A DNA stretch of 48,901 nucleotides, taken from Alistipes sp. (lineage in GTDB: Bacteria; Bacteroidota; Bacteroidia; Bacteroidales; Rikenellaceae). The notes under the pieces were generated by a model, which did not search any database, was not told the origin of the DNA, and was given only the letters and a program-made list of their open reading frames with translations. Made by a program: the position numbers and the translations under genes. This document shows, piece by piece, positions 32,194 to 47,678 of this stretch; within the stretch, counting starts at the first letter, position 1, and the number at the start of each line of letters is the position of its first letter. The DNA is taken from positions 1 to 48,901 of the forward strand of contig JAFVIB010000049.1 in the NCBI GenBank assembly GCA_017474235.1, written 5' to 3'.

Positions 32194-32263
32194 TATCAGA
32201 CAACTTTTTTATAATTTAAAAAATCATAACCAACATCGATTTTTACAAAGACAGACACAGAAC

Positions 32264-32324
32264 TGCCCGCTTTTTCGAGAAAAAGCAGGGCATGCAAAAA
32301 GCTTTCGGAGAAACTGCGTTTCTC
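32264..32324. other. Two consecutive hairpins upstream of the DksA-like gene
   Basis: The first pairs TGCCCGCTTTTT (32264-32275) with 32280-32292 with one bulged A; the second pairs GAGAAAC (32308-32314) with GTTTCTC (32318-32324) around a 3-nt loop. No gene is credible here on either strand. Part of a longer palindrome-rich block, perhaps a dispersed extragenic repeat. Confidence 0.6.
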
Positions 32325-32336
32325 TTCTCTGCGTTG

Positions 32337-32457
32337 CGGATTTAGGATAGCCGTGTGGCTATTACAATAAAAGATAGTCCATCTTTCGGTTTCAAGCAAG
32401 CTTGACCTTAGAGGACTATCTTTTCTTGTGCCATCTACGATGGTTTTCCTAAATCCG
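32337..32457. other. Four-way-junction-like palindromic element (candidate structured RNA)
   Basis: Closing helix of 11 perfect bp (32337-32347 with 32447-32457) encloses three arms: a 5-bp hairpin (32348-32352/32357-32361), a 12-bp perfect helix (32369-32380/32413-32424) capped by a TCAAG/CTTGA hairpin, and a 5-bp hairpin (32431-32435/32439-32443). It could be a cruciform-type mobile or extragenic element or an RNA. There are no G.U pairs to tell which strand would be the RNA. Confidence 0.55.
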
Positions 32458-32510
32458 AAAAGAGAGATAATTCGCCAATAGTATAAAATATAAAATATTT
32501 ACATTCCCTC

Positions 32511-32577
32511 CAAACCTCCCTTTGGAAAAGGGAGGCTTTGTCGCAGAAAAAGGTTAGAGAAATCAAACCTTTTCTGC
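32511..32577. other. Hairpin pair, probably part of a dispersed repeat
   Basis: CCTCCCTTT (32515-32523) pairs perfectly with 32527-32535, extended by CAAA/TTTG outside. A second hairpin pairs 32543-32555 with 32566-32577 (one bulged A), with an inner GA/TC step and a GAAA loop on the plus strand. Reading frames through this block are low-complexity and not credible proteins. Confidence 0.5.
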
Positions 32578-32652
32578 TCCGAGGTGCATATCGGTAGCTA
32601 TATGACAATTGATTTTTACCGACAACTAAATACTCTACACATAGTTTGCACC

Positions 32653-32777
32653 ATTTTGTTGTCAAAATAGTGCAAATACAACGCTCACCGATATTCGAGG
32701 CGATGGGACATACTTCTGTATTTCCCATTGACGAGAATGAGGTAGCGGAAGTAGTTGTGCTATTTTCACAACAAAAT
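32653..32777 (+). ncRNA. Candidate structured RNA, hairpin module 1 of a tandem pair
   Basis: One long imperfect hairpin of 125 nt. Outer helix 32653-32662/32768-32777 (10 bp), C663.C767 mismatch, 12 paired positions 32664-32675/32755-32766, A676.G754, TAC/GTA (677-679/751-753), asymmetric loop AA/GAA (680-681/748-750), CGCT/AGCG (682-685/744-747), then helices broken by tandem G.A pairs, and an ATGGGA/TCCCAT stem closed by ATAC-TTCT-GTAT. Two U.G wobble pairs (671/759, 672/758) and the G.A pairs exist only in a plus-strand RNA. An ATAGTTTGCACC at 32641-32652 resembles a weak -7 region and would start the RNA almost exactly here. Confidence 0.55.
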
Positions 32778-32778
32778 C

Positions 32779-32905
32779 ATTTTATCGTCAGAGTGGGGTA
32801 TATACAACGCTCGATGAAAAATGCCGACGATGGATAGTACTAAGTACAGCCATTGTCGGCACTTTTTTATTAGCGGAAGTAGATACCCCGCTATCACGAT
32901 AAAAT
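32779..32905 (+). ncRNA. Candidate structured RNA, hairpin module 2 of a tandem pair
   Basis: 127 nt, one base after module 1. The same plan at identical spacing: 10-bp outer helix (32779-32788/32896-32905), C789.C895, 12 positions (790-801/883-894, 11 of 12 paired), A802.G882, TAC/GTA, AA/GAA (806-807/876-878), CGCT/AGCG (808-811/872-875). The apical part pairs 32814-32833 with 32850-32870 and ends in GTAC-TAA-GTAC. Its T6 run also makes the apical half look like a terminator. Wobbles at 794/890 and 829/854 again favour the plus strand. It ends two bases before the alpha-oxoamine synthase stop codon. Confidence 0.55.
32816..32868. terminator. Bidirectional terminator-like stem inside module 2
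   Basis: 12-bp stem (32822-32833 with 32850-32861, one G.T), preceded by an A5 run and followed by T6. It could end the leftward alpha-oxoamine synthase transcript (stop at 32908) and any rightward RNA. Confidence 0.6.
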
Positions 32906-32907
32906 AT

Positions 32908-34179
32908 TTAGCGTACTTTAAAATCCGGATCAGCCTTCATCGGAATAGGCATTGAACTATAGTATCCCGACTCGAACTTATCACGGACAGCCTTAAAGGC
33001 GTTGATGGTATATTCTACATCCTCCATAGTGTGAGCTGCGGTAGGGATTACGCGCAGGATAATCTCGCCCTTTGGAATTACAGGATAGATTACGATTGAG
33101 CAGAATACGCCGTAGTTCTCACGGAGGTCAACGATAAGGTTTGTACCCTCCTCATTGCCGCCCTTCATATATACAGGGGTTACAGGGGACTGAGTAACAC
33201 CGATATCGAAGCCGTTAGCCTTCAGACCGCTCTGCAATGCGCGGGTAATCTCCCACAACTTCTCCTGATACTCCGGATGGTTGCGGATAAGCTCCAGACG
33301 CTTAAGTGCGCCGATAACCATTGGCATTGGCAGTGACTTTGCGTAGAGCTGTGAGCGCATATTGTAGCGGAAGAGGTTGATAAGCCAACGCGGACCTGAC
33401 ACGAATGCGCCGATACCTGCCATAGACTTTGCGAAGGTATTGAAGAGTACATCTACACCATCAACAACGCCGAAGTGTGCAGCTGTACCACGACCACCGG
33501 GACCCATAGTACCGAAACCGTGTGCATCATCAACAAGAAGGCGGAAGTTGAAGTCCTTCTTTGCCTTTACGATAACATCCAAGAAGCCCAAGTCGCCCTT
33601 CATACCGAATACACCCTCGGTAATTACGAGTACACCACCGCGCTGCTCCTCAGCCAGGTCTGTTGCGTGCTTAAGCTGCAAGCGCAGAGAAGCCTCGTCA
33701 TTGTGAGCAAAGACAAAACGCTTACCCTTATGCAGACGCAGACCATCAATAATACAAGCGTGAGCCTCAGCATCATAGACCACAACATCACGAGGAGTAA
33801 GCAGACAGTCGATAATCGAAATCATACCCTGATAACCGAAGTTAAGCAGGAATGCATCCTCCTTACCAACGAACTCTGCCAACTCGCGCTCCAGCTGCTC
33901 GTGGTACTTAGTCTGACCACTCATCATACGAGCACCCATAGGTGCAGCCATACCAAACTCCGCAGCACCGGCAGCATCTGCCTTGCGTACCTCCGGATGG
34001 TTAGCCAAGCCTAAATAGTTGTTAAGGCTCCAGTTGAGCATCATCTTACCACGGAAACGCATATGAGGACCAATCTCGCCCTCAAGCTTTGGAAATGCAA
34101 AATATCCGTGAACATTCTGCATATACTGACCAATCGGTCCGCCTGTGTTTTTTTCAAGGCGTTCAAAAATATCTACCAT
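32908..34179 (-). CDS. PLP-dependent alpha-oxoamine synthase (Kbl / serine palmitoyltransferase-like)
   Basis: 423 residues. Fold-type I aminotransferase: SLNNYLGLANHPEVRKA, GARMMSGQTKYHEQLE, LLVDDAHGFGTMGPGGRG (PLP-ring Asp and His) and the Schiff-base Lys in FAKSMAGIGAF. The family condenses an amino acid with an acyl-CoA: glycine with acetyl-CoA (Kbl), serine with palmitoyl-CoA (SPT, first step of sphingolipid synthesis, common in Bacteroidales), or alanine with pimeloyl-CoA (BioF). Which one applies cannot be decided here; Kbl or SPT are most likely. Monocistronic. Confidence 0.8.
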   Translation of the reverse strand: MVDIFERLEKNTGGPIGQYMQNVHGYFAFPKLEGEIGPHMRFRGKMMLNWSLNNYLGLANHPEVRKADAAGAAEFGMAAPMGARMMSGQTKYHEQLERELAEFVGKEDAFLLNFGYQGMISIIDCLLTPRDVVVYDAEAHACIIDGLRLHKGKRFVFAHNDEASLRLQLKHATDLAEEQRGGVLVITEGVFGMKGDLGFLDVIVKAKKDFNFRLLVDDAHGFGTMGPGGRGTAAHFGVVDGVDVLFNTFAKSMAGIGAFVSGPRWLINLFRYNMRSQLYAKSLPMPMVIGALKRLELIRNHPEYQEKLWEITRALQSGLKANGFDIGVTQSPVTPVYMKGGNEEGTNLIVDLRENYGVFCSIVIYPVIPKGEIILRVIPTAAHTMEDVEYTINAFKAVRDKFESGYYSSMPIPMKADPDFKVR

Positions 34180-34924: not shown

Positions 34925-36109
34925 ATGGCAAAAGAAAAATTTGACCGCTCGAAACCGCACGTAAACATCGGTACTATCGGTCACGTAGACCACGGTAAGA
35001 CTACTCTTACTGCTGCTATTACCACTGTACTTGCTAAGGCAGGTCTCTCTGAGCTTCGTTCATTCGATTCTATCGATAACGCACCAGAGGAGAAGGAGCG
35101 TGGTATCACTATCAACACTGCACACGTAGAGTACCAGACTGCTGGTCGTCACTACGCTCACGTAGACTGTCCAGGTCACGCCGACTATGTAAAGAACATG
35201 GTTACCGGTGCTGCTCAGATGGACGGTGCTATCCTCGTAGTTGCTGCTACTGATGGTCCTATGCCTCAGACAAACGAGCACGTTCTGCTCGCAAAGCAGG
35301 TAAATGTACCAAAGATCGTAGTATTCCTTAACAAGTGTGATATGGTTGACGATGCAGAGATGCTTGACCTCGTTGAGATGGAGGTTCGTGACCTGCTCGC
35401 TAAGTATGACTTCGATGAGGATTGCCCTATCATCCGCGGTTCTGCACTTGGTGGTTTGAATGGTGAGCCACAGTGGGAGGAGAAGATTATGGAGCTCATG
35501 AACAGCGTTGATGAGTATATTCCAATCCCAGCTCGTGAGAACGAGAAGCCATTCCTTATGCCAGTTGAGGATGTATTCTCAATCACAGGTCGTGGTACTG
35601 TAGTTACAGGTCGTATCGAGACAGGTATCATCCATGTAGGTGATCCAGTTGAGATCGTAGGTCTTGGCGAGAAGTCAATGAACTCAACTTGTACAGGTGT
35701 TGAGATGTTCCGTAAGCTCCTCGATGAGGGTGAGGCTGGTGACAATGTAGGTCTGCTTCTCCGTGGTATCGACAAGAAGGAGGTTAAGCGTGGTATGGTT
35801 GTAGCTAAGCCAGGTTCTATCAAGCCACACACTAAGTTCACTGCTGAGGTTTATATCCTGAAGAAGGAGGAGGGTGGTCGTCACACTCCATTCCACAACA
35901 AGTATCGTCCTCAGTTCTACCTCCGTACTATGGATGTTACCGGTGAGGTAGCTCTTCCAGAGGGTGTAGATATGGTAATGCCAGGTGACCACGTTACAAT
36001 CACTGTAACTCTCATCTATCCTGTAGCTATCAACGAGGGTCTGCGTTTCGCAATCCGTGAGGGTGGTCGTACAGTAGGTGCTGGTCAGGTACTTGCAATC
36101 GTTGAGTAA
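34925..36109 (+). CDS. tuf: Elongation factor Tu
   Basis: 394 residues. G1 GHVDHGKTT (19-27), G3 DCPGH near 80 and G4 NKCD near 136, then beta-barrel domains 2 ([13 protein letters not shown]) and 3. It delivers aminoacyl-tRNA to the ribosome. Its codons are strongly biased, as in highly expressed genes. It follows three tRNAs and precedes tRNA-Trp and secE, the classic tRNA-tuf-secE-nusG-ribosomal protein arrangement. Confidence 0.98.
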
Positions 36110-36126
36110 TTAATCTCGACAAAATA

Positions 36127-36147
36127 GGGAGAGGTTTTTCCTCTCCC
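36127..36147 (+). promoter_or_regulatory. Hairpin between tuf and tRNA-Trp
   Basis: GGGAGAGG pairs with CCTCTCCC around T5, with no T run behind. It is probably a processing or 3'-protecting structure rather than a terminator, because the operon continues. Confidence 0.5.
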
Positions 36148-36152
36148 ACTTT

Positions 36153-36226
36153 AGGAGCATAGTTCAAGGGTAGAATAGCGGTCTCCAAAACCGTTGATGG
36201 GAGTTCGAATCTCTCTGCTCCTGCCA
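36153..36226 (+). tRNA. tRNA-Trp (anticodon CCA), with encoded 3' CCA
   Basis: Acceptor AGGAGCA pairs with TGCTCCT; discriminator G at 36223; the next bases 36224-36226 are CCA. Anticodon loop CTCCAAA with CCA. It is the only one of the five tRNAs here that encodes its CCA end. It lies between tuf and secE. Confidence 0.95.
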
Positions 36227-36244
36227 AGATAAAAGAGAAAAACT

Positions 36245-36439
36245 ATGGGATACATTAAAGACTCATACAAAGAGTTAGTAGAGAAGGTTAGCTGGCCTTC
36301 TTTTGCTCAGTTACAGAGTTCAACTATCGTTGTGATGGTCGCATCATTGATCTTCGCAATGATTGTACTCGTTATGGATGTTTCGTTCGAGACCATTATG
36401 CAGGGAATCTACAAGTTCCTCGGCAACCTTGGTCAGTAA
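36245..36439 (+). CDS. secE: Preprotein translocase subunit SecE
   Basis: 64 residues with one membrane helix (about 27-47) preceded by a conserved amphipathic helix (SYKELVEKVSWPSFAQL, the K-W-P motif). It is the minimal SecE form typical of this phylum. It stabilises SecY. It is placed directly before nusG, as in most bacteria. Confidence 0.95.
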   Translation: MGYIKDSYKELVEKVSWPSFAQLQSSTIVVMVASLIFAMIVLVMDVSFETIMQGIYKFLGNLGQ

Positions 36440-36459
36440 CATATTGATAGGTTAGTTAT

Positions 36460-37026
36460 ATGAGCGAAACAAAGAAGGAGAAGGCGTGGTATGTTGTTCG
36501 CGCCATTGGTGGCAAGGAGCATAAGGTAAAGGAGTACCTTGATGCTGAGATTCGCCGCAATGGTCTTGAGGAGCAGATATCACAGGTTCTTATTCCTACA
36601 GAAAAGGTTTACACCATCCGCAACGGAAAGAAGGTCTCAAAGGAGAGAGTTTCTTATCCGGGTTATGTATTGGTGGAAGCCATCTTAGACGGACAAATTC
36701 CATATATCATTCGCAATACTCCAAATGTACTCGGTTTCCTTGGTGATACTAAGGAAGAGAGCCGCAAGCTAATAGCTACACCTCTGCGTCCACAAGAGGT
36801 AAGTCGCATATTAGGTCGCGTCGATGAGTTAAACGAGATGGAGGAGGAACAGGCAGTACCGTTTGTTGTTGGCGAGAGCGTAAAAGTTACGGACGGTCCA
36901 TTCTCAAGCTTCCAAGGTACCATTGAGAGTGTCAACAACGAGGCGCGTAAATTGGTTGTTTCAGTGAAGATATTTGGTCGCAAGACTCCAATGGAGTTGA
37001 GCTTCACACAAGTAGAAAAAGAATAA
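36460..37026 (+). CDS. nusG: Transcription termination/antitermination factor NusG
   Basis: 188 residues. The NGN domain opens AWYVVRAIGGKEHKVKEYL; the KOW domain is ESVKVTDGPFSSFQGTIESVN near the C-terminus. It binds the beta' clamp and links RNA polymerase to Rho or the ribosome. 20 nt after secE and 15 nt before rplK. Confidence 0.96.
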   Translation: MSETKKEKAWYVVRAIGGKEHKVKEYLDAEIRRNGLEEQISQVLIPTEKVYTIRNGKKVSKERVSYPGYVLVEAILDGQIPYIIRNTPNVLGFLGDTKEESRKLIATPLRPQEVSRILGRVDELNEMEEEQAVPFVVGESVKVTDGPFSSFQGTIESVNNEARKLVVSVKIFGRKTPMELSFTQVEKE

Positions 37027-37041
37027 TAAACCAGGAAAATT

Positions 37042-37482
37042 ATGGCAAAAGAGGTTGCTGCATTTATTAAGTTGCAGATCAAAGGTGGTGCTGCCAACCC
37101 TTCACCTCCGGTAGGTCCGGCATTGGGTTCTAAGGGAGTCAATATCATGGACTTCTGTAAGCAGTTCAATGCTCGTACACAGGACAAGGCGGGAAAGGTT
37201 CTGCCAGTTATCATCACAGTTTATAGCGATAAGTCTTTCGATTTCGTCGTAAAACAGCCACCGGTAGCCGTTCAGCTTAAGGAAGCTGCTAAGATCAAGT
37301 CCGGTTCCGCACAGCCTAACCGCTCTAAGGTTGGTCAGGTTACATGGGAGCAGGTAGCAGAGATTGCTAAGGACAAGATGCCAGATCTTAACTGCTTTAC
37401 ACTTGAGGCTGCAATGCGTATGATTGCTGGTACTGCGCGCAGTATGGGTATCAACGTAGTTGGTGAATTTCCTAACGCGTAA
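37042..37482 (+). CDS. rplK: 50S ribosomal protein L11
   Basis: 146 residues. The N-terminal domain carries the flexible [28 protein letters not shown] loop; the C-terminal rRNA-binding domain ends [12 protein letters not shown]. It forms the GTPase-associated stalk base with L10/L12, whose genes follow. Confidence 0.97.
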
Positions 37483-37495
37483 TTAAATTACAAAG

Positions 37496-38194
37496 ATGAG
37501 TAAGTTGACAAAAAATCAAAAGATTGCCTACGCAAAGATTGAGCCAAACAAGGCTTATAAGCTCAGTGAGGCTGCCGCTCTTCTGAAGGAAATCACCTTT
37601 ACAAAGTTTGATGCTTCAGTAGATATTGATGTGCGCTTAGGCGTTGACCCTCGTAAAGCTAACCAGATGGTTCGCGGTGTTGTAACTCTTCCTCACGGAA
37701 CAGGTAAGGTAGTACGAGTTCTCGTACTCTGTACACCTGAGAAGGAGGCAGAGGCACAGGCTGCAGGTGCCGATTTCGTAGGTTTGGATGAGTATGTTGA
37801 TAAGATCAAGTCTGGTTGGACTGATGTTGATGTAATCATCTGTACACCTAATGTAATGGGTAAGGTAGGTGCGCTCGGTCGTATCCTCGGTCCTCGCGGT
37901 CTGATGCCAAACCCTAAGACCGGTACGGTTACTATGGAGGTCGGAAAGGCTGTTCAGGATGTGAAAGCCGGTAAGATTGACTTTAAGGTTGATAAGTACG
38001 GTATCGTTCACACCTCAATTGGTAAGGTATCATTCACTGCTGAGCAGATCGAGGAGAATGCTAAGGAGGTAATGAGCACCATTATCAAACTCAAACCATC
38101 CGCTGCTAAGGGTACATATGTTCAGAGCATTTATCTCTCAACAACAATGAGCCCAGGCGTACAGGTTGATCCAAAATCAGTTGAAACAAAATAA
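37496..38194 (+). CDS. rplA: 50S ribosomal protein L1
   Basis: 232 residues with [28 protein letters not shown] and [14 protein letters not shown]. It forms the mobile L1 stalk that helps release deacylated tRNA. In many bacteria L1 represses this operon by binding its mRNA; no clear L1-binding leader was identified here. Confidence 0.97.
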
Positions 38195-38209
38195 AAGGAG
38201 GATTAAACA

Positions 38210-38734
38210 ATGACTAAAGAACAAAAAGCTGTCGTTATCGATAATCTTGTTGCTCAGCTCAATGAGTATCCTCACTTTTATGTCACAAACATTGAGGCTC
38301 TTAACGCAGAGCAGACTGCTACACTTCGTCGCAAGTGCTTTGACAGCGATATTAAGCTTATCGTTGTAAAGAACACTCTTCTTGAGAAGGCACTCGAGCG
38401 CGTTAATAAGGCAGATGCTGAGTTGGTAAATGTACTTGCAGGTCCTACTGCAGTAATGCTTACAAACACCGGTAAGGCTCCAGCAGTTCTTATCAAGGAG
38501 TTCCGTAAGAAGAGCGACAAGCCAATCATCAAGGCTGCATGCGTAGAGGGTTGTGTATATGTTGGTGACGATCAGCTGGATACCCTGTGCAACATCAAGA
38601 GCAGAGAGGAGCTCATTGGCGACATCGTTGCACTGCTCCAGTCTCCTGCAAAGAATGTTATCTCTGCACTGCGTGCTAATGCAGGCGAGAAGATCGCGGG
38701 TCTGGTAAAGACTCTCGAAGAAAGAAATAATTAA
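38210..38734 (+). CDS. rplJ: 50S ribosomal protein L10
   Basis: 174 residues. N-terminal rRNA-binding domain (VVKNTLLEKALERVNKADAE, GPTAVMLT) and a C-terminal helix that docks L7/L12 dimers. A 39-nt A-rich gap precedes rplL. Confidence 0.96.
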   Translation: MTKEQKAVVIDNLVAQLNEYPHFYVTNIEALNAEQTATLRRKCFDSDIKLIVVKNTLLEKALERVNKADAELVNVLAGPTAVMLTNTGKAPAVLIKEFRKKSDKPIIKAACVEGCVYVGDDQLDTLCNIKSREELIGDIVALLQSPAKNVISALRANAGEKIAGLVKTLEERNN

Positions 38735-38773
38735 TAAAAAGAAACAAAAACAAATTTAATAAAAATTACAACT

Positions 38774-39148
38774 ATGGCAGATGTAAAAGTATTGGCAGAG
38801 GAGTTGGTAAACTTGACTGTTAAAGAGGTAAACGAATTGGCTACCATCCTCAAGGAGGAGTACGGTATTGAGCCTGCTGCTGCAGCTGTTGCTGTTGCTG
38901 CTGCTCCTGCTGCTGCAGGTGAGGCTGCTGCAGAGAAGACTACTTTCGATGTAGTTCTTAAGAGCGCTGGTCAGGCTAAGCTCCAGGTTATCAAGGCTGT
39001 TAAGGAGGCTGCTGGTCTCTCACTTGGTGACGCTAAGGCTCTCGTTGACGCAGCTCCTAAGGCTGTTAAGGAGGGTGTTTCTAAGGAGGAGGCTGAGGCT
39101 CTCAAGGCTTCTCTCGAGGAGGCAGGTGCAGAGGTTGAGCTTAAGTAA
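38774..39148 (+). CDS. rplL: 50S ribosomal protein L7/L12
   Basis: 124 residues. N-terminal dimerisation helices, an Ala-rich hinge (about 38-55) and the C-terminal factor-binding domain ([38 protein letters not shown]). It recruits EF-Tu and EF-G. Multiple copies per ribosome are needed; a structured region that may cut rpoBC expression follows. Confidence 0.97.
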
Positions 39149-39179
39149 TTTTTTACTTAGTTTATCCAGACACATCTCA

Positions 39180-39220
39180 GGCGTAGAGCTTACTACTGCA
39201 GTGTAAGCTCTATGCCTTTT
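39180..39220 (+). terminator. Terminator/attenuator between rplL and rpoB
   Basis: A 14-bp stem with one G.T (39180-39193 with 39203-39216), 9-nt loop and a T4 tail. The short T run suggests partial readthrough, which would set the rplL:rpoB ratio. A small AAGTAA/TTACTT hairpin precedes it right after the rplL stop. Confidence 0.65.
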
Positions 39221-39527
39221 CCGGTCTTAAAATCCGTTTTTGCGCAAAGGAGCGAATTTGAGACCAAAAACAATAAAAAATCCCCACATCGGAAGTGCAA
39301 AAAGGCTGTGTCCGGCGTGGAGATAGAGACCAAAAAAAGGGCAATTTTAGGGTGTATAATCACGCTAAAATTTGAGGTTTTGCGACCCAACGCTCATTCG
39401 CAGGTCTCACGGATGCTCTCAGTGGCGTAATGTGCCAACAATGAGGGCATTAGCGGTGTGAAAAAGAACCGTTTTGAGGGTAGTTTTTTCCCTTTCGAGT
39501 ACTCACAAAAAACAACCGGATTAATTT
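39221..39527 (+). promoter_or_regulatory. Structured leader upstream of rpoB
   Basis: No credible gene. GAGACCAAAAA occurs twice (about 39259 and 39326), and GGTCTC at 39403-39408 can pair with either copy; GGTCT near 39223 is a third partner. A hairpin pairs 39343-39350 with 39365-39372 with an inner GTG/CAC. AGGG/CCCT forms a short stem near 39477-39492. TAAAATTTG at 39366-39374 resembles a -7 box with one extra base. Together these suggest a leader with alternative folds. Confidence 0.4.
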
Positions 39528-42500
39528 ATGTCCACAAAAACACAAAATCGAATTAGCTTCTCCACGGTCAAGAATCGTGTGCCTTATCCTGATTTGTTGG
39601 AGATTCAGCTCAAATCATTCCGAGACTTTTTCCAGATGGACTCCACTGCCGAGCAGCGCAAGGGTGAGGGTCTTTACAGAGTCTTTCAGGAGAATTTCCC
39701 TATTACCGATACCCGCAACAACTTCGTGTTGGAGTTCCTCGATTACTACATCGACCCACCACGCTACACTATTGAGGAGTGTTTAGAGCGCGGACTGACC
39801 TACAATGTTCCGCTCAAGGCTAAGTTGCGTCTCTCTTGCAACGACAACGACCATGAGGATTTCAAGGTTGTCGTTCAGGATGTCTATTTCGGTAACATTC
39901 CGTATATGACGGAGCGAGGCACCTTCGTCATCAATGGTGCAGAGCGCGTAATCGTATCGCAGCTCCACCGTTCACCGGGTGTATTCTTCGGTCAGAGCGT
40001 CCACACAAACGGTACTAAGCTCTACTCGGCTCGTATCATCCCATTCAAGGGTTCGTGGATTGAGTTCGCTACTGACATCAACAATGTCATGTACGCATAT
40101 ATCGACCGTAAGAAGAAGTTACCTGTAACAACACTTCTGCGTGCTATCGGTTATGAGACCGACCAGCAGATTCTCGATATTTTTGACCTTGCAGATGAGA
40201 TGAAGGTCACAAAGACCAACCTTAAGAAGGCAGTAGGTCGCAAGTTGGCAGCTCGTATCCTCTCCACATGGATTGAGGACTTCGTAGATGAGGATACCGG
40301 TGAGGTAGTATCTATCGAGCGTAACAATGTCATTGTCGATCGTGAGACCATTCTTGAGGAGAGTCACATCGATGCAATTCTTGAGAGCGGTGTTAAGACT
40401 ATTATTCTCCACAAGGAGAATCCGTCAGGCATCGACTTCTCGATTATCTATAACACACTTCAGAAGGATGCTTGTAACTCAGAGGTTGATGCTGTTCGTT
40501 ACATCTATCGTCAGTTGCGTGCTTCCGAGGCACCGGATGATGCAACCGCTCGTGATGTTATCGACAAGCTCTTCTTCTCTGACAAGCGTTACGACTTGGG
40601 CAATGTGGGTCGTTTCCGTATCAACAAGAAGCTCGACCTTGGTATTGATCCTAATATCCGTACACTTACTCGTGAGGATATTATCGCCATTATCAAGTAC
40701 CTTATCGAGCTGATTAACTCTCACGCAGAGCTTGATGATATCGACCACTTGTCAAATCGTCGTGTTCGTACAGTTGGCGAGCAGCTTTCAAATCAGTTCT
40801 CGATTGGTTTCGTGCGTATGGCTCGAACTATTCGTGAGCGAATGAATGTGCGTGACAATGAGGTATTTACACCGGTAGATTTGATTAATGCCAAGACTCT
40901 GTCGAGCGTTATCAACTCCTTCTTCGGTACCTCACAGCTCTCGCAGTTTATGGATCAGATCAACCCGCTTGCCGAGGTTACTCACAAGCGTCGTCTGTCA
41001 GCACTCGGTCCTGGTGGTCTGTCACGAGATCGTGCAGGTTTCGAGGTGCGAGATGTACACTATACACACTACGGTCGTCTCTGCCCTATCGAGTCTCCGG
41101 AGGGTCCAAACATCGGACTTATCTCATCTCTTTGCGTCTATGCAAAGATTTCAGATATGGGCTTCATCGAGACTCCATACCGCAGCGTAGAGAATGGTGT
41201 TGTTGATCTTGACAACTCACATATCCGCTACTACTCAGCAGAAGAGGAGGAGGGTCAGGTTGTAGCACAGTCTAACGAGCCGCTCACAGACGATGGTCAC
41301 TTTGTAAATAAGGACCGTATCAAGGCTCGTGAGGGTGCAGACTTCCCTGTAGTTCACGATACAGATGTAAATCTGATGGATGTTGCTCCAAATCAGATTG
41401 CCTCTATCGCGGCAAGCCTTATCCCATTCCTTGAGCACGATGACGCGAACCGTGCGCTGATGGGTTCTAACATGATGCGTCAGGCAGTGCCGCTCGTAAA
41501 TTGCGAGGCTCCAATTGTAGGTACAGGCATTGAGAAGGATATGATCTCAGACAGCCGCATACAGATTGTTGCAAGCAGCGATGGAGAGGTTGTATTTGCA
41601 GACGCAACTCGTATTGATATTCGTTACGACCGTACAGAGGAGGAGAAAGTATGTACCTTCGAGCCGGAGATTACATCATATACTCTGCCACGCTACCGTC
41701 GTACAAACCAGAATACATCTATCACACTTCGTCCACTTGTACTTACAGGTGACCGCGTGAAGGCTGGTCAGATTCTTACCGAGGGCTACTCTACTCAGAA
41801 CGGCGAGCTCGCACTTGGTCGTAACCTTAAGGTTGCGTTCATGCCTTGGAAGGGTTATAACTTCGAGGATGCGATTGTTATCTCTGAGCGTATTCAGCGC
41901 GAGGATCTGTTCACCTCTGTACATGTTGACGAGTATATCCTCGAGGTTCGTGATACAAAGCGTGGTAAGGAGGAGCTGACTTCAGATATTCCGAATGTCA
42001 GCGAGGATGCTACCCGCGACCTCGATGCTAACGGTATTATCCGTATCGGTGCAAATGTTAAGCCGGGCGATATCCTTATCGGTAAGATTACCCCTAAGGG
42101 AGAGAGCGACCCATCTCCGGAGGAGAAGTTGCTCCGCGCTATCTTCGGTGACAAGGCAGGAGATGTTAAGGATGCATCACTCAAGGCACAGCCATCACTC
42201 CACGGTGTGGTTATTGACACTAAGCTCTATAGCCGCGCAGGTAGTGTTGATAAGAAGAACCGCCTTGCCGAGAAGGAGGCACTTTCAAAGATTGACGAGA
42301 AGCACCGTGAGCAGGCACTTGCTCTGACCGCTGTTTTGGTAAGCAAACTTTGGGCAGTTCTTCAGGGTAAGACTACAACCGGTATTACAGACTACTTCGG
42401 TGCAGAGCTTTATGCTCCAGGAGCAAAGTTCACACAGAAGATGCTCGATGATATCTCTCGTAAGACTATCGACGAGAAGAGCAAGCTTGAGGTTGGTTAT

Positions 42501-43385
42501 CTGAACCTCGGCTCTTGCAACTGGACAGACGATGCTCATACAAACGAGCTTGTTGAGTGTATTATCAACAACTATATCGTTGAGTTCAAGAAGATTTCTG
42601 CTGCAATTACTCGTGAGAAGATTAACCTTACAAATGGTGATGAGCTTCCACAGGCAGGAGTTATTCAGGTTGCGAAGGTATATATCGGTAAGAAGCGTAA
42701 GCTGAAGGTAGGAGATAAGATGGCGGGTCGTCACGGTAACAAGGGTATTGTTGCTAAGATTGTCCGCGACGAGGATATGCCATTCCTTGAGGATGGTACA
42801 ATCGTAGATATCTGTCTTAACCCACTCGGTGTGCCTTCACGAATGAACCTCGGTCAGATTTACGAGACCGTTCTTGGATGGGCAGGTCGTGAGCTTGGTC
42901 TAAAGTTCGCTACACCTATCTTCGATGGTGCATCTCTTGATCAGATTAACGAGTACACAGCACAGGCAGGTATTCCACATAGCGGTCGAACTTACCTCTA
43001 CGATGGTGGTACAGGCGAGCGTTTCGACCAGCCGGCAACTGTAGGTGTAATCTATATGCTTAAGCTCGGTCATATGATTGACGATAAGATGCACGCTCGT
43101 TCTATCGGTCCATACTCACTCATCACCCAGCAGCCACTCGGTGGTAAGGCACAGTTTGGTGGTCAGCGATTCGGAGAGATGGAGGTTTGGGCACTCGAGG
43201 GCTTCGGTGCAGCAAACATTCTTCAGGAGATTCTTACCGTTAAGTCTGACGATGTTACAGGTCGTGCTAAGACTTATGAGGCAATTGTTAAGGGCGACAA
43301 CCTTCCAAAGCCTGGTATTCCAGAGGCTATGAATGTATTGCTCCACGAGCTTCGCGGTCTTGCACTCTCAGTAAAACTTGAGTAA
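39528..43385 (+). CDS. rpoB: RNA polymerase beta subunit
   Basis: 1285 residues. Includes the rifampicin-pocket segment [36 protein letters not shown] (about 465-500) with the wild-type Gln, Asp, His and Ser positions, and the catalytic-core [12 protein letters not shown] near 1062. The C-terminus that contacts beta' ([15 protein letters not shown]) is intact. It forms the core enzyme with rpoC 36 nt downstream. Length is normal for Bacteroidota. Confidence 0.98.
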
Positions 43386-43421
43386 TAATAAGTAGGTATA
43401 AATAGAAAAATTGTAACAAAT

Positions 43422-46400
43422 ATGGCAATTAAAGATAATACAACCGGTTACAGCCGCATTTCGATTAGCCTCGCCTCTCCGGAGGAGATTTTGGCGCAGT
43501 CAAGCGGCGAGGTGCTCAAGCCAGAGACTATCAACTATCGTACCTACAAGCCGGAGCGTGACGGTCTGTTCTGCGAGCGTATCTTTGGTCCTGTAAAGGA
43601 TTATGAGTGTAACTGCGGAAAGTACAAGCGCATTCGTTATAAGGGTATTGTCTGCGACCGATGCGGTGTAGAGGTAACTGAGAAGAAGGTTCGCCGTGAG
43701 CGTATGGGTCACATCTCACTTGTTGTGCCTGTAGTTCATATCTGGTACTTCAAGTCACTCCCTTCAAAGATTGGTTACCTGCTCGGTATCCCATCTAAGA
43801 AGTTGGAGGGAATTATCTACTACGAGCGTTATGTTGTTATCAACGCCGGAGCAGCAGAGAAGCAGGGTATTGCAAAGTATCAGACCCTTGCCGAGAAGGA
43901 GTATCTTGATGTTCTCGATGCACTTCCAGCAGGCAACCAAAATCTTCCTGATGGCGATCCGGACAAGTTCGTAGCGATGATGGGTGCAGAGGCTATCAAA
44001 CTTCTGTTGCAGGAGGTTGATTTGGATAAGATGTCATACGATCTTCGTGACCGTGCATCCCGCGAGACCTCACAGCAGCGTAAAAGCGAGAGCCTCAAGC
44101 AGCTTAATGTTATCGAGTCATTCCGTGCATCTCAGGGCAAGAACCGTCCTGAGTGGATGGTGCTTGATGTTATTCCGGTAATTCCACCGGAGCTCCGTCC
44201 ACTCGTTCCACTGGATGGTGGTCGTTTTGCAACATCAGACTTGAACGACCTCTATCGTCGTGTTATTATCCGTAATAACCGACTCAAGCGTCTTATTGAG
44301 ATTAAGGCTCCGGAGGTTATCCTTCGTAACGAGAAGCGTATGCTTCAGGAGGCTGTCGATTCACTGTTCGACAACTCTCGTAAGAGCAACGCTGTTAAGA
44401 ACGAGAGCAACCGCCCACTCAAGTCACTCTCTGACTCACTTAAGGGTAAGCAGGGTCGCTTCCGTCAGAATTTGCTCGGTAAGCGTGTCGATTACTCGGC
44501 TCGTTCAGTAATCGTCGTAGGTCCTGAGTTGAAGATGCACGAGATGGGTATTCCAAAGGATATGGCAGCAGAGCTCTACAAGCCATTTATTATCCGCAAG
44601 CTCATCGAGCGTGGTATCGTTAAGACTGTCAAGAGTGCAAAGAAGATAATTGACCGCAAGGACCCTGTAATTTGGGGCATCCTTGAGAATGTTATCAAGG
44701 GACACCCTGTTCTTATGAACCGTGCTCCGACCCTTCACCGTCTTGGTATTCAGGCGTTCCAGCCAAAGCTTATCGAGGGTAAGGCAATGCAGCTCCACCC
44801 ACTCTCTTGTACTGCGTTCAACGCAGACTTCGATGGTGACCAGATGGCTGTTCACTTGCCACTTGGCAATGCAGCAATCCTCGAGGCACAGTTGCTTATG
44901 CTCGGTTCACACAATGTCCTCAATCCTGCTAACGGTGCGCCAATTACCGTGCCTTCACAGGATATGGTCCTCGGTCTGTACTACATCACAAAGCCACGCC
45001 CTAATGTAAAGGGTACAGGTCTTGTATTCTACGGTCCGGAGGAGGCAATTATTGCATACAACGAGGGTCGTGTAGATATCCACGCTGTTGTTAAGTGCCG
45101 TGTTCGCGATTTGGACGAGAACGATCAGCCTGTCGTAAAGCTTGTTGAGACCACAGTAGGTCGTATCCTTGTAAATCAGGTTGTTCCTGAGGAGGTTGGC
45201 TATGTAAACGAGCTGCTGACAAAGAAGTCACTGCGTGATATCATCTCAGTAGTGATGAAGAAGGCAGGTGCAGACAAGGTAGCTAAGTTCCTCGACGATA
45301 TCAAGAATATGGGTTACCAGATGGCATTCCGTGGCGGTCTGTCATTTAACCTTGATGCAGTAATCATCCCTGATGCTAAGGAGCAGCTGGTAGCCGAGGG
45401 TTATCAGAAGGCTGAGGCTATTATGGATGACTATAATATGGGTCTTATCACCAACAATGAGCGTTATAACCAGATTATCGATGTTTGGACAAATGTAAAC
45501 AATAAGCTCTCAAAGCAGGTGGTAGATACCCTTACAAATGATGATGACGGTTTCAACCCTGTATATATGATGCTTCACTCAGGAGCGCGTGGTTCACGAG
45601 AGCAGATTCGTCAGCTTTCAGGTATGCGTGGTCTGATGGCGAAGCCGCAGAAGTCAGGTGTTGAGGGTGGTCAGCAGGTTATCGAGAACCCAATTCTCTC
45701 CAACTTTAAGGAGGGTCTGTCAGTGCTTGAGTACTTTATCTCTACTCACGGTGCTCGTAAGGGTCTTGCTGATACCGCTCTTAAGACAGCCGATGCAGGT
45801 TATCTTACCCGTCGTCTTGTAGATGTTGCACAGGATGTTATCATCACTGAGGACGATTGCGGTACACTGCGTGGTCTTAATGCAACAGCTATCAAGCGTA
45901 ACGATGATGTCGTTCAGACACTCTATGACCGCATCTTGGGTCGTACAGCCCTTAACGATGTTATCAACCCACTCACTGAGGAGGTTCTCTGCCGTGCCGG
46001 CGAGGAGATTACAGAGGAGATTGCAGCAGCTATCGAGAAGTCGCCAATCGAGTCAGTAGATATCCGCTCGGTACTCACTTGTGCTTCACGCCACGGCGTT
46101 TGTGCAAAGTGTTACGGTCGTAACCTTGCTACTGCCCGAATGGTTCAGAAGGGCGAGGTTGTGGGTGTTATCGCTGCACAGTCAATCGGTGAGCCGGGTA
46201 CACAGCTTACACTCCGTACATTCCATGTCGGTGGTGTTGCGGGTGGTTCGACTATCGAGACCAATGTAGTATCTAAGTATGAGGGTCGCCTTGAGATTGA
46301 TGAGCTCCGCACCGTAAAGGGTAAGAACTCACAGGGCGAGGCTATCAATATCGTAATCTCTCGTCAGTCAGAGTTCCGTATTGTAGATCCTAATACCAAT

Positions 46401-47678
46401 ATTACACTCTATACTCACGCTCTGCCTTATGGTGCTACAATCTTTATGGAGCATGGCGCAACTGTTAAGAAGGGCGATCTTATCTGCGAGTGGGATCCAT
46501 ATAACGCAGTAGTTATCGCAGAGCACGACGGTAAGGCATCTTACGACTCACTCATCGAGGGTGTTACCTATCGTGAGGAGCGTGATGAGCAGACAGGTAT
46601 GTCAGAGCGCGTAGTTGTTGAGTCTCGCGACCGTAAGAATATCACCCCTTCAATCAAGATTGTAAGCAAGGATGGCGAGGAGCTTCGCTCATACAACCTT
46701 CCGGTATCTGCTCACATTGCAGTTAAGGACAATGGTCGCGTACATGTCGGCGATATTCTGTTCAAGATTCCTCGTGTTGTAGGTAAGAGCGGAGGCGATA
46801 TCACCGGAGGTCTTCCACGAGTTACAGAGCTCTTCGAGGCTCGTAACCCATCGAACCCTGCAATCGTATCAGAGATTGATGGTGAGGTAACATTCGGTAA
46901 GATTAAGCGTGGTAATCGTGAGATTATCATCACCTCTAAGTCTGGCGAGATTTGCAAGTACCTCGTACCACTGTCACGCCAGATTATCGTACAGGAGAAC
47001 GACTTTGTTCGCGCCGGTATGCCACTCTCTGATGGAGCTATCACTCCAAGCGATATCCTGCGTATCCTCGGTCCAACTAAGGTTCAGGAGTATATCGTGA
47101 ACGAGGTTCAGGAGGTTTACCGTATGCAGGGTGTGAAGATTAACGATAAGCACTTCGAGGTTATCGTACGCCAGATGATGAACAAGGTTCAGATTGAGGA
47201 TCCGGGAGACTCTCGTTTCTTCGAGAACCAGATTGTCGATAAGTGGGAGTTTATGGATGTAAACGACGAGCTGTATGATAAGGTAGTTGTTACCGATGCA
47301 GGCGATTCACAGAATGTCTTTGCAGGTCAGATTATCTCAATGCGTAAGCTTCGTGATGAGAACTCATCACTCAAGCGTCGCGATATGAAGACTGTTGAGA
47401 CTCGCCCAATCGTTGCAGCAACCTCAAATCAGGTTCTTCAGGGTATTACCCGTGCAGCACTCCAGACAACCAGCTTCATCTCGGCAGCATCCTTCCAGGA
47501 GACAACCAAGGTGCTCAACGAGGCGGCTATTCAGGCTAAGACAGATAACCTTGTAAATCTTAAGGAGAATGTCATCTGCGGTGGTCGTATTCCTGGCGGT
47601 ACAGGTCTGAGAGAGTACGAGAACCTTGTTGTCGGTCTTAAGGCTGATGTCGAGGGTCTGCTTACTGCGGAGAACTAA
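43422..47678 (+). CDS. rpoC: RNA polymerase beta' subunit
   Basis: 1418 residues. N-terminal zinc site (CNCG...CDRCG near 64-86), the catalytic [15 protein letters not shown] near 467 holding Mg2+, the bridge helix, trigger-loop region and the second zinc site ([13 protein letters not shown] near 886-898). The large insertion after the trigger loop is intact. A strong terminator follows. Confidence 0.98.

Follow-up and report, generated by a model that had tools for sequence, protein, structure and literature searches.

Introduction

REPs collect behind the stop codons of genes and can supply those codons themselves, according to sections of PMC3733652 and PMC12306157, and elements of the IS200/IS605 group are described in part of PMC6006769 as inserting with a bias that follows replication. 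Both the movement of REP-like palindromes and their gathering at gene ends are still debated. Another hairpin in this position is the integron attC site, an imperfect hairpin behind a stop codon in which the antisense strand is the structured one, arrays have a polarity and R boxes are conserved.

Here we analyzed a pair of hairpins in a 48,901-nt stretch of DNA from Alistipes sp. (contig JAFVIB010000049.1; we refer to this whole stretch as the window). Judged from sequence, these hairpins are members of a large, apparently undescribed family of ~129-nt dispersed repeats in Alistipes. Searches of the open-access literature in PMC listed no paper with a description of Alistipes hairpin repeats or of replication-polar REPs. 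The family joins conservation of structure only, placement at stop codons and a chromosome-wide polarity where the usual transposase was undetected and, because that transposase was not detected, it separates the question of gene-end hairpins from the RAYT system.

Results

The hairpin pair of the window

A first-pass annotation of this DNA had described two adjacent hairpins of ~126 nt, and on re-examination their coordinates and anatomy were correct (Table 1). A pair-by-pair recount by eye reproduced the seven two-sided changes that it reported, at positions 6 and 8 of the outer helix and at positions 15, 17, 19, 21 and 23 (numbered there as 4, 6, 8, 10 and 12 of the middle helix), as well as two one-sided G.U changes, at positions 16 and 20. 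The C.C mismatch at position 11, the A.G mismatch at position 24 and the AA/GAA loop were common to both copies. One difference had been overlooked: position 13 is A-U in copy 1 and a G.A mismatch in copy 2.

Table 1. Features of the hairpin pair and its surroundings (coordinates of the window).
Feature	Position	Strand	Remark
Hairpin copy 1 (125 nt)	32653..32777	+	Left copy of the array of two; scored 106.7 bits by the model
Hairpin copy 2 (127 nt)	32779..32905	+	Adjoins the stop codon; model score 123.2 bits
Copy 2 apical stem, A-run and T-run on its flanks		+	Read from sequence
Copy 1 2x3 internal loop	5' side AA 32680..32681; 3' side GAA 32748-32750	+	
Copy 2 2x3 internal loop	5' side AA 32806..32807; 3' side GAA 32876-32878	+	
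Copy 1 basal C.C mismatch, C	32663..32663	+	Partner 32767; in the GTCA..TCAC motif, conserved in alignments
Left flank GCACC	32648..32652	+	..CC immediately 5' of the hairpin is the sole conserved flank letter pair
Alpha-oxoamine synthase-like gene (423 aa)	32908..34179	-	Its stop codon abuts the array

RNA folding of the plus strand gave -56 kcal/mol for copy 1 and -65 kcal/mol for copy 2 (z = -9.97 and -12.02), and the minus strand folded more weakly in both (z = -6.30 and -9.40). On each strand of each copy, 0 of 200 shuffles were as stable. At the gathering score Rfam returned tRNA only, and a relaxed search of positions 32300-32950 (E ≤ 1) added a single hit, to a plant miRNA model, which fell well short of its cut-off and lay off the pair, in agreement with the earlier remark that no known class matches. 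The statement that the pair holds no protein stands in that no plausible gene was seen; a 97-aa minus-strand ORF (32435-32728), probably spurious, does overlap copy 1. The adjoining gene, which we take to be an alpha-oxoamine synthase after the name given by the first-pass annotation, indeed ends here, its stop codon 2 nt from the hairpin, but it lies on the minus strand, with the plus-strand hairpin antisense to it.

Copy number and distribution

The core pattern TACAACGCTC-N40-70-AGCGGAAGTA had 16 matches in the genome from which the window comes (hereafter the own genome), and its reversed control had none. A slightly looser pattern matched in 13 of the 61 genus genomes searched, the own genome included, and in 0 of 40 genomes from other families of the order. 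A covariance model, which the first-pass annotation had proposed, was built from 16 copies and used to search the genus, giving hits in 81 of 151 Alistipes/Rikenellaceae genomes; with the limited scoring applied, no copy was detected in the other 70.

Once opposite-strand shadows were removed, the own genome (1.97 Mb) held ~114 copies, 66 of them single and the other 48 spread over 19 groups with two to five members, a count drawn from 150 scored out of 1014 candidates (132 rows reported, shadows included) in which some contig-end copies may be one locus counted twice. In each of four relatives the search listed between 78 and 144 rows, again with opposite-strand shadows. Several copies lie at contig ends and so the repeats probably break assemblies, which is relevant to the annotation of a common gut genus.

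Among the matches listed from a named genome collection, 79 of 80 (at least 80 loci) were Alistipes or Rikenellaceae MAGs, and those of their loci with a named source came from ruminant or deer hindgut. The other, a Chlorobaculum locus (L100), was rejected as a family member, being a chance match in repetitive coding DNA. In a second taxonomic family of the order (f29) we found a low-copy form whose basal and middle loop motifs are the same and whose helices differ, present in 7 of 8 genomes at 1-7 rows each; the order-wide search, with 11 candidates scored in each genome, failed to pick up one (G088) that was found later, so that its matches are a lower bound. No match was seen in viral contigs (exact core pattern), phages or plasmids.

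Fold, covariation and the folded strand

When 16 copies were aligned, 95.4% of the cells were paired and 24 of 46 pairs had two-sided changes. The covariation score was 0.392, compared with 0.145 for shuffled and at most 0.092 for slid alignments, figures that are inflated by the relatedness of the copies; a second lineage was therefore brought in, and for f29 the score was 0.318 (0.113 shuffled, at most 0.087 slid) on an alignment that was fitted to the model. Across 109 distinct copies there were 521 G.T cells and 33 A.C cells, or 244 and 33 once wobble-dominated pairs were removed. Because G.T pairs far outnumber A.C pairs, one strand is the folded one. Folding favored the plus strand for 115 of 118 copies (mean margin 13.4 kcal/mol) and for all 11 loci from the second family, in one of them by just 0.7 kcal/mol. 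The first-pass view of the plus strand, as a conserved fold with a nearly invariant internal loop and strong covariation, was thus upheld.

The core loop of 94 parsed class-I copies read AA/GAA in 89, CA/GCA in 4 and AA/GCA in 1, whilst 14 of 117 copies belonged to other middle-loop classes (in our own scheme) and 9 were unclassified; these counts, like those of stability, G.T and A.C cells, right neighbors, flanks and A- and T-runs, are biased to class I because loci were chosen by the exact class-I pattern. A few copies had unrelated basal arms with pairing still kept, the arms pairing whatever their sequence (three partial rows, L120, L128 and L115:1-105, were omitted from this comparison). 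Set beside classical MITEs, which have conserved terminal inverted repeats and a target-site duplication, the ends of the hairpin pair but vary in sequence, and flank profiles showed no common duplication. These ends were sharp in 71 of 72 measurable copies, the remaining one extending >3 nt outwards. Conservation over 96 left flanks was confined to C at positions -2 (64%) and -1 (47%); a TATAGTTTGCACC-like, promoter-like leader 5' of the hairpin in several copies of the own genome was not conserved over these flanks and was set aside. Around the apical stem, 39 of 117 distinct copies had an A-run plus a T-run resembling a bidirectional terminator, and 78 were without the double run.

Placement behind stop codons

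The right neighbor lay on the opposite strand in 91 of 108 copies, at a median distance of 3 nt. The same was true of 35 of 41 loci in the own genome (median -1; 28 within 15 nt), a count that covers 57 of the ~114 copies, taken from fetched stretches and loci, after omission of a duplicate and of three rows that were cut or partial. For the second family the right gene was opposite in 10 of 11 loci, 8 of these at ≤12 nt, although the 11 loci are not independent (L286 and L296 are orthologous sites, and likewise the thrA-side arrays). At distances of -1 or -2 the final hairpin bases make up part of the stop codon, and at -12 the TGA is apparently supplied by the hairpin. The left neighbor was on either strand, with minus-strand genes in 39 of the 91 copies that had a left gene listed, and was mostly distant. 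Genes in the analysis scripts were simple longest-ORF calls. By eye, the genes beside large arrays looked like ordinary chromosomal genes.

We compared by eye the same stop codon in the 30 closest synthase orthologues. Other forms of the element were seen there in three loci (L187-L189), a remnant in L193 and a different hairpin in L186, and the remaining orthologues had mostly plain terminator-like stems. Ten pairs of elements at the same site were available from fetched loci; two were near-identical (95 and 97%) and eight were at 68-82%, with five of the ten resting on alignments of ≤135 nt. A search for a clean pair of empty and filled sites, made in part with a crude 'without an element' test (292 of 400 rows, 25 of them listed), found none and no insertion event was seen, the orthologous stop codons carrying other hairpins or plain terminators.

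Arrays

The stop-proximal copy had the best score in 17 of the 19 groups of the own genome against 8.1 expected, by a model trained on class I and with the groups including C29 (two overlapping hits) and two cut by contig ends. The window array followed the same trend (Table 1). This pattern fits growth at the stop-codon end and decay further off.

Orientation along the chromosome

Over five genomes, 142 of 157 neighboring loci shared orientation (p = 4e-27 against one half) and 15 disagreed; the four other genomes entered this count with the matches listed, and shadows in the own genome were removed by hand. All 18 loci on contig C24 of the own genome pointed in the same direction across 227 kb, and in the relative G003 the loci ran one way on C40 (14/14, up to ~320 kb) and on C64 (11/11). 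Coding sequence in the own stretches was 50% per strand relative to the element. Gene direction does not explain the polarity, because coding strands are evenly divided along polar contigs.

Plain GC skew was rejected as a replication marker, since it tracks the coding strand, and was replaced by the skew at 4-fold sites split by gene strand. In the own genome, element-strand genes had a skew of -0.283 and those on the opposite strand one of -0.030 (p = 1e-14), omitting L235 (flip) and L245 (orientation exception); with L245 included, the values were -0.272 and -0.047. For the named loci they were -0.288 and -0.160 (p = 1e-6). Of 19 oriented own stretches, 16 had the expected sign, two were near zero (L250 and L251) and L245 was opposite, with few or no minus-strand genes available in L242, L249 and L250. 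From this strand-split 4-fold skew the element strand is therefore the C-rich strand. In the window itself, with the plus strand as the C-rich one, the plus-strand genes tuf, nusG and rpoC (34925-47678) would be lagging-strand genes, which is unusual if true.

On contig C35 of the own genome, orientation flips between 50.7 and 65.0 kb. At the flip, an AT-rich intergenic region (C35 51933-52116 of G000, in L235) has six same-strand TTWTCAAC-type DnaA-box-like repeats in ~190 bp; among 235 other loci, not one reached four such repeats within 400 bp. This cluster is likely to be a replication origin (oriC-like), and the direction of the skew change points the same way. By eye its neighbors were nadA-like and mrp-like genes, and no dnaA gene was seen adjoining. 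If C35 carries the origin, the folded strand would be the leading-strand template and the neighbor gene co-directional with the fork, a label that is less certain than the polarity. With 16S genes as a marker of the leading strand, one G168 locus fitted this label, a partial second was weakly opposite and two G103 loci were uninformative; under the label, the tuf, nusG and rpoC genes of the window would run head-on. No dif-like site was listed at the flip. On contig C7 (37924-38626 of G000, in L245), two copies at 37.9 and 38.5 kb have similar flanks and lie ~580 nt apart.

Discussion

Comparison with described elements

REPs, REPINs and BIMEs, as far as sections of PMC3733652, PMC12306157 and PMC6006769 describe them, resemble the Alistipes repeats in being many dispersed imperfect palindromes, in tandem or mosaic groups close behind stop codons, with G.T in their stems; the CGTC-tagged REPs of the same sources likewise have no dedicated transposase. 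With its many intergenic palindromic copies near gene 3' ends, the family is REP-like in the wide sense. It differs in its length (~129 nt with several fixed internal loops, against 20-40 bp), in its paired ends, which have no unpaired GTAG or CGTC tag and are flanked only by ..CC, and in its head-to-tail arrays, where those of REPs are mainly inverted dimers, and its polarity is chromosome-wide. It also differs from RAYT (TnpA-REP) systems: the Y1 transposase (PF01797) was not detected in the own genome (98.9% complete), and of 81 genomes of the genus one had it.

IS608 and ISDra2, of the IS200/IS605 group, have hairpins handled as single strands and a replication-coupled, strand-biased insertion (part of PMC6006769), and the orientation bias of the Alistipes loci is of that kind, with the leading/lagging label uncertain. 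In contrast to those elements, no TnpA was detected in the own genome, no fixed target tetranucleotide was seen in the flanks and, should the strand label hold, the template exposed on the lagging strand would not be the folded one. The enterobacterial ERIC/RU-1 elements, given in the section seen of PMC2759123 as 127 bp, intergenic and MITE-like, are alike in size and intergenic position, but a search of E. coli genomes with the Alistipes repeat gave no match at E ≤ 0.01. The Alistipes family unites REP-like placement at stop codons with IS200/IS605-like replication bias, without the REP tag, the REP size or the Y1 transposase. Integron attC sites share the hairpin behind a stop codon, the antisense folded strand and the array polarity; R boxes were not seen by eye in the variable Alistipes arms, and the neighbors are ordinary chromosomal genes.

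Proposed insertion in step with replication

Placement at stop codons together with nearly uniform orientation per chromosome arm suggests a novel way of copying hairpins into the genome. In the reading that we prefer, and whose chances we put at about even, the two hairpins of the window make up an array of a dispersed, non-autonomous REP-like hairpin, recognized by its structure and inserted in step with replication. Such an element would spread as a single-stranded hairpin, recognized through its fold and loops rather than its end sequences, and would insert, as replication proceeds, at the 3' ends of genes that run in one direction relative to the fork (probably co-directional). Fresh copies would land beside the stop codon again while older copies decay farther away, and the inserted hairpin would then serve as, or replace, the 3' hairpin or terminator of the gene. 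Counting against this reading are the 15 discordant neighbor pairs and the C7 copies, which are oriented against the local strand skew and not near a stop codon. The comparison of sites that yielded no clean empty and filled pair, and the searches that yielded no enzyme candidate, weigh on the same side, as does the uncertain leading/lagging label.

The enzyme would apparently be neither a Y1/RAYT transposase nor a reverse transcriptase. Neither was detected in the own genome, and both were rejected as the general mobilizing enzyme. Reverse transcriptase (PF00078) was found in 5 of 12 element-rich genomes, compared with 9 of 14 genomes without a listed match, and was not needed in at least 7 of the 12, several of which are incomplete assemblies. 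If insertion is real, a shape-recognizing, gene-end-targeting insertion activity remains to be found. We regard the family as REP-like, and a new mechanism as a real possibility. More tentatively, and with the balance somewhat against it, it could be a new class of mobile hairpin with no conserved ends, recognized by fold and loops, inserted at stop codons by replication-coupled means for one gene direction and by an enzyme neither HUH/Y1 nor reverse transcriptase, its arrays growing at the stop codon and native terminators being continually replaced across the genus.

Alternative explanations

The main rival is that the hairpins are 3'-end elements kept by selection (as terminators, for mRNA 3' protection or to slow ribosomes), with copies exchanged by gene conversion and not by transposition. 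The stop-codon position in both families fits this, as do the plain terminators seen by eye at the same site in relatives and the bidirectional-terminator-like runs in 39 of 117 copies, and REPs ≤15 nt from a stop codon slow ribosomes according to a section of PMC12306157. However, the mRNA would bear the A.C-mismatch strand and not the strand selected for pairing, function in a transcript does not predict uniform orientation along whole contigs, and the double run is absent from the other 78 copies, so we regard this explanation as rather unlikely.

The first-pass annotation had taken the pair for a tandem structured RNA. Genes for non-coding or antisense RNAs on the plus strand, their loop binding a protein or ligand, would account for the excess of G.T over A.C, the conserved loop and the covariation across two families, but a stand-alone RNA of this kind was not supported and we now give it little weight. 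The module is a genome-wide repeat of more than 100 copies with varied helices, its left side has no conserved promoter, and the left gene, a potential source of read-through, lies on the minus strand beside 39 of the 91 copies for which one was listed. In addition, the folded strand is antisense to the neighbor gene, and orientation tracks the chromosome, being uniform along contigs on which genes run equally both ways. The same annotation had named, as an outcome that would count against it, copies occurring only as mobile repeats without expression; of this, the first half was found, in that the copies are dispersed repeats.

We think it equally improbable that the hairpins are polar chromosome landmarks (KOPS-like), bound by a segregation, repair or topology protein and kept in orientation by selection. 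Uniform orientation up to ~320 kb (C40 of G003, 14/14) and the flip at the oriC-like site would be expected of such landmarks, yet these would need neither placement at stop codons nor tandem arrays, and 70 of 151 congeners had no detected copy under limited scoring. Least probable of all is fold-back copying during replication that extends and corrects chance gene-end hairpins, giving pairing without selection on structure: the arms do pair regardless of sequence, and in L009 (also L239 11404-11531) run ~12 nt into the coding end of the neighbor gene, but fixed mismatches persist in nearly all class-I copies and in the second family, G.T is far commoner than A.C, and outward extension by >3 nt is confined to one copy of 72, on which count inverted duplication of flanks was also dismissed as the source of the arms.

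Neighboring repeats in the window

To the left of the pair, the window is a mosaic of repeated hairpin pieces. Positions 32336-32456 form a second, different hairpin of ~121 nt (fold -56.4 kcal/mol, z = -8.4), which is also repeated, L004 matching 32255-32474 at 93%, and a hairpin resembling it lies behind the synthase stop codon of a relative (L186). A short hairpin stretch at 32258-32289 recurs near other element copies (L007, L012 and L016).
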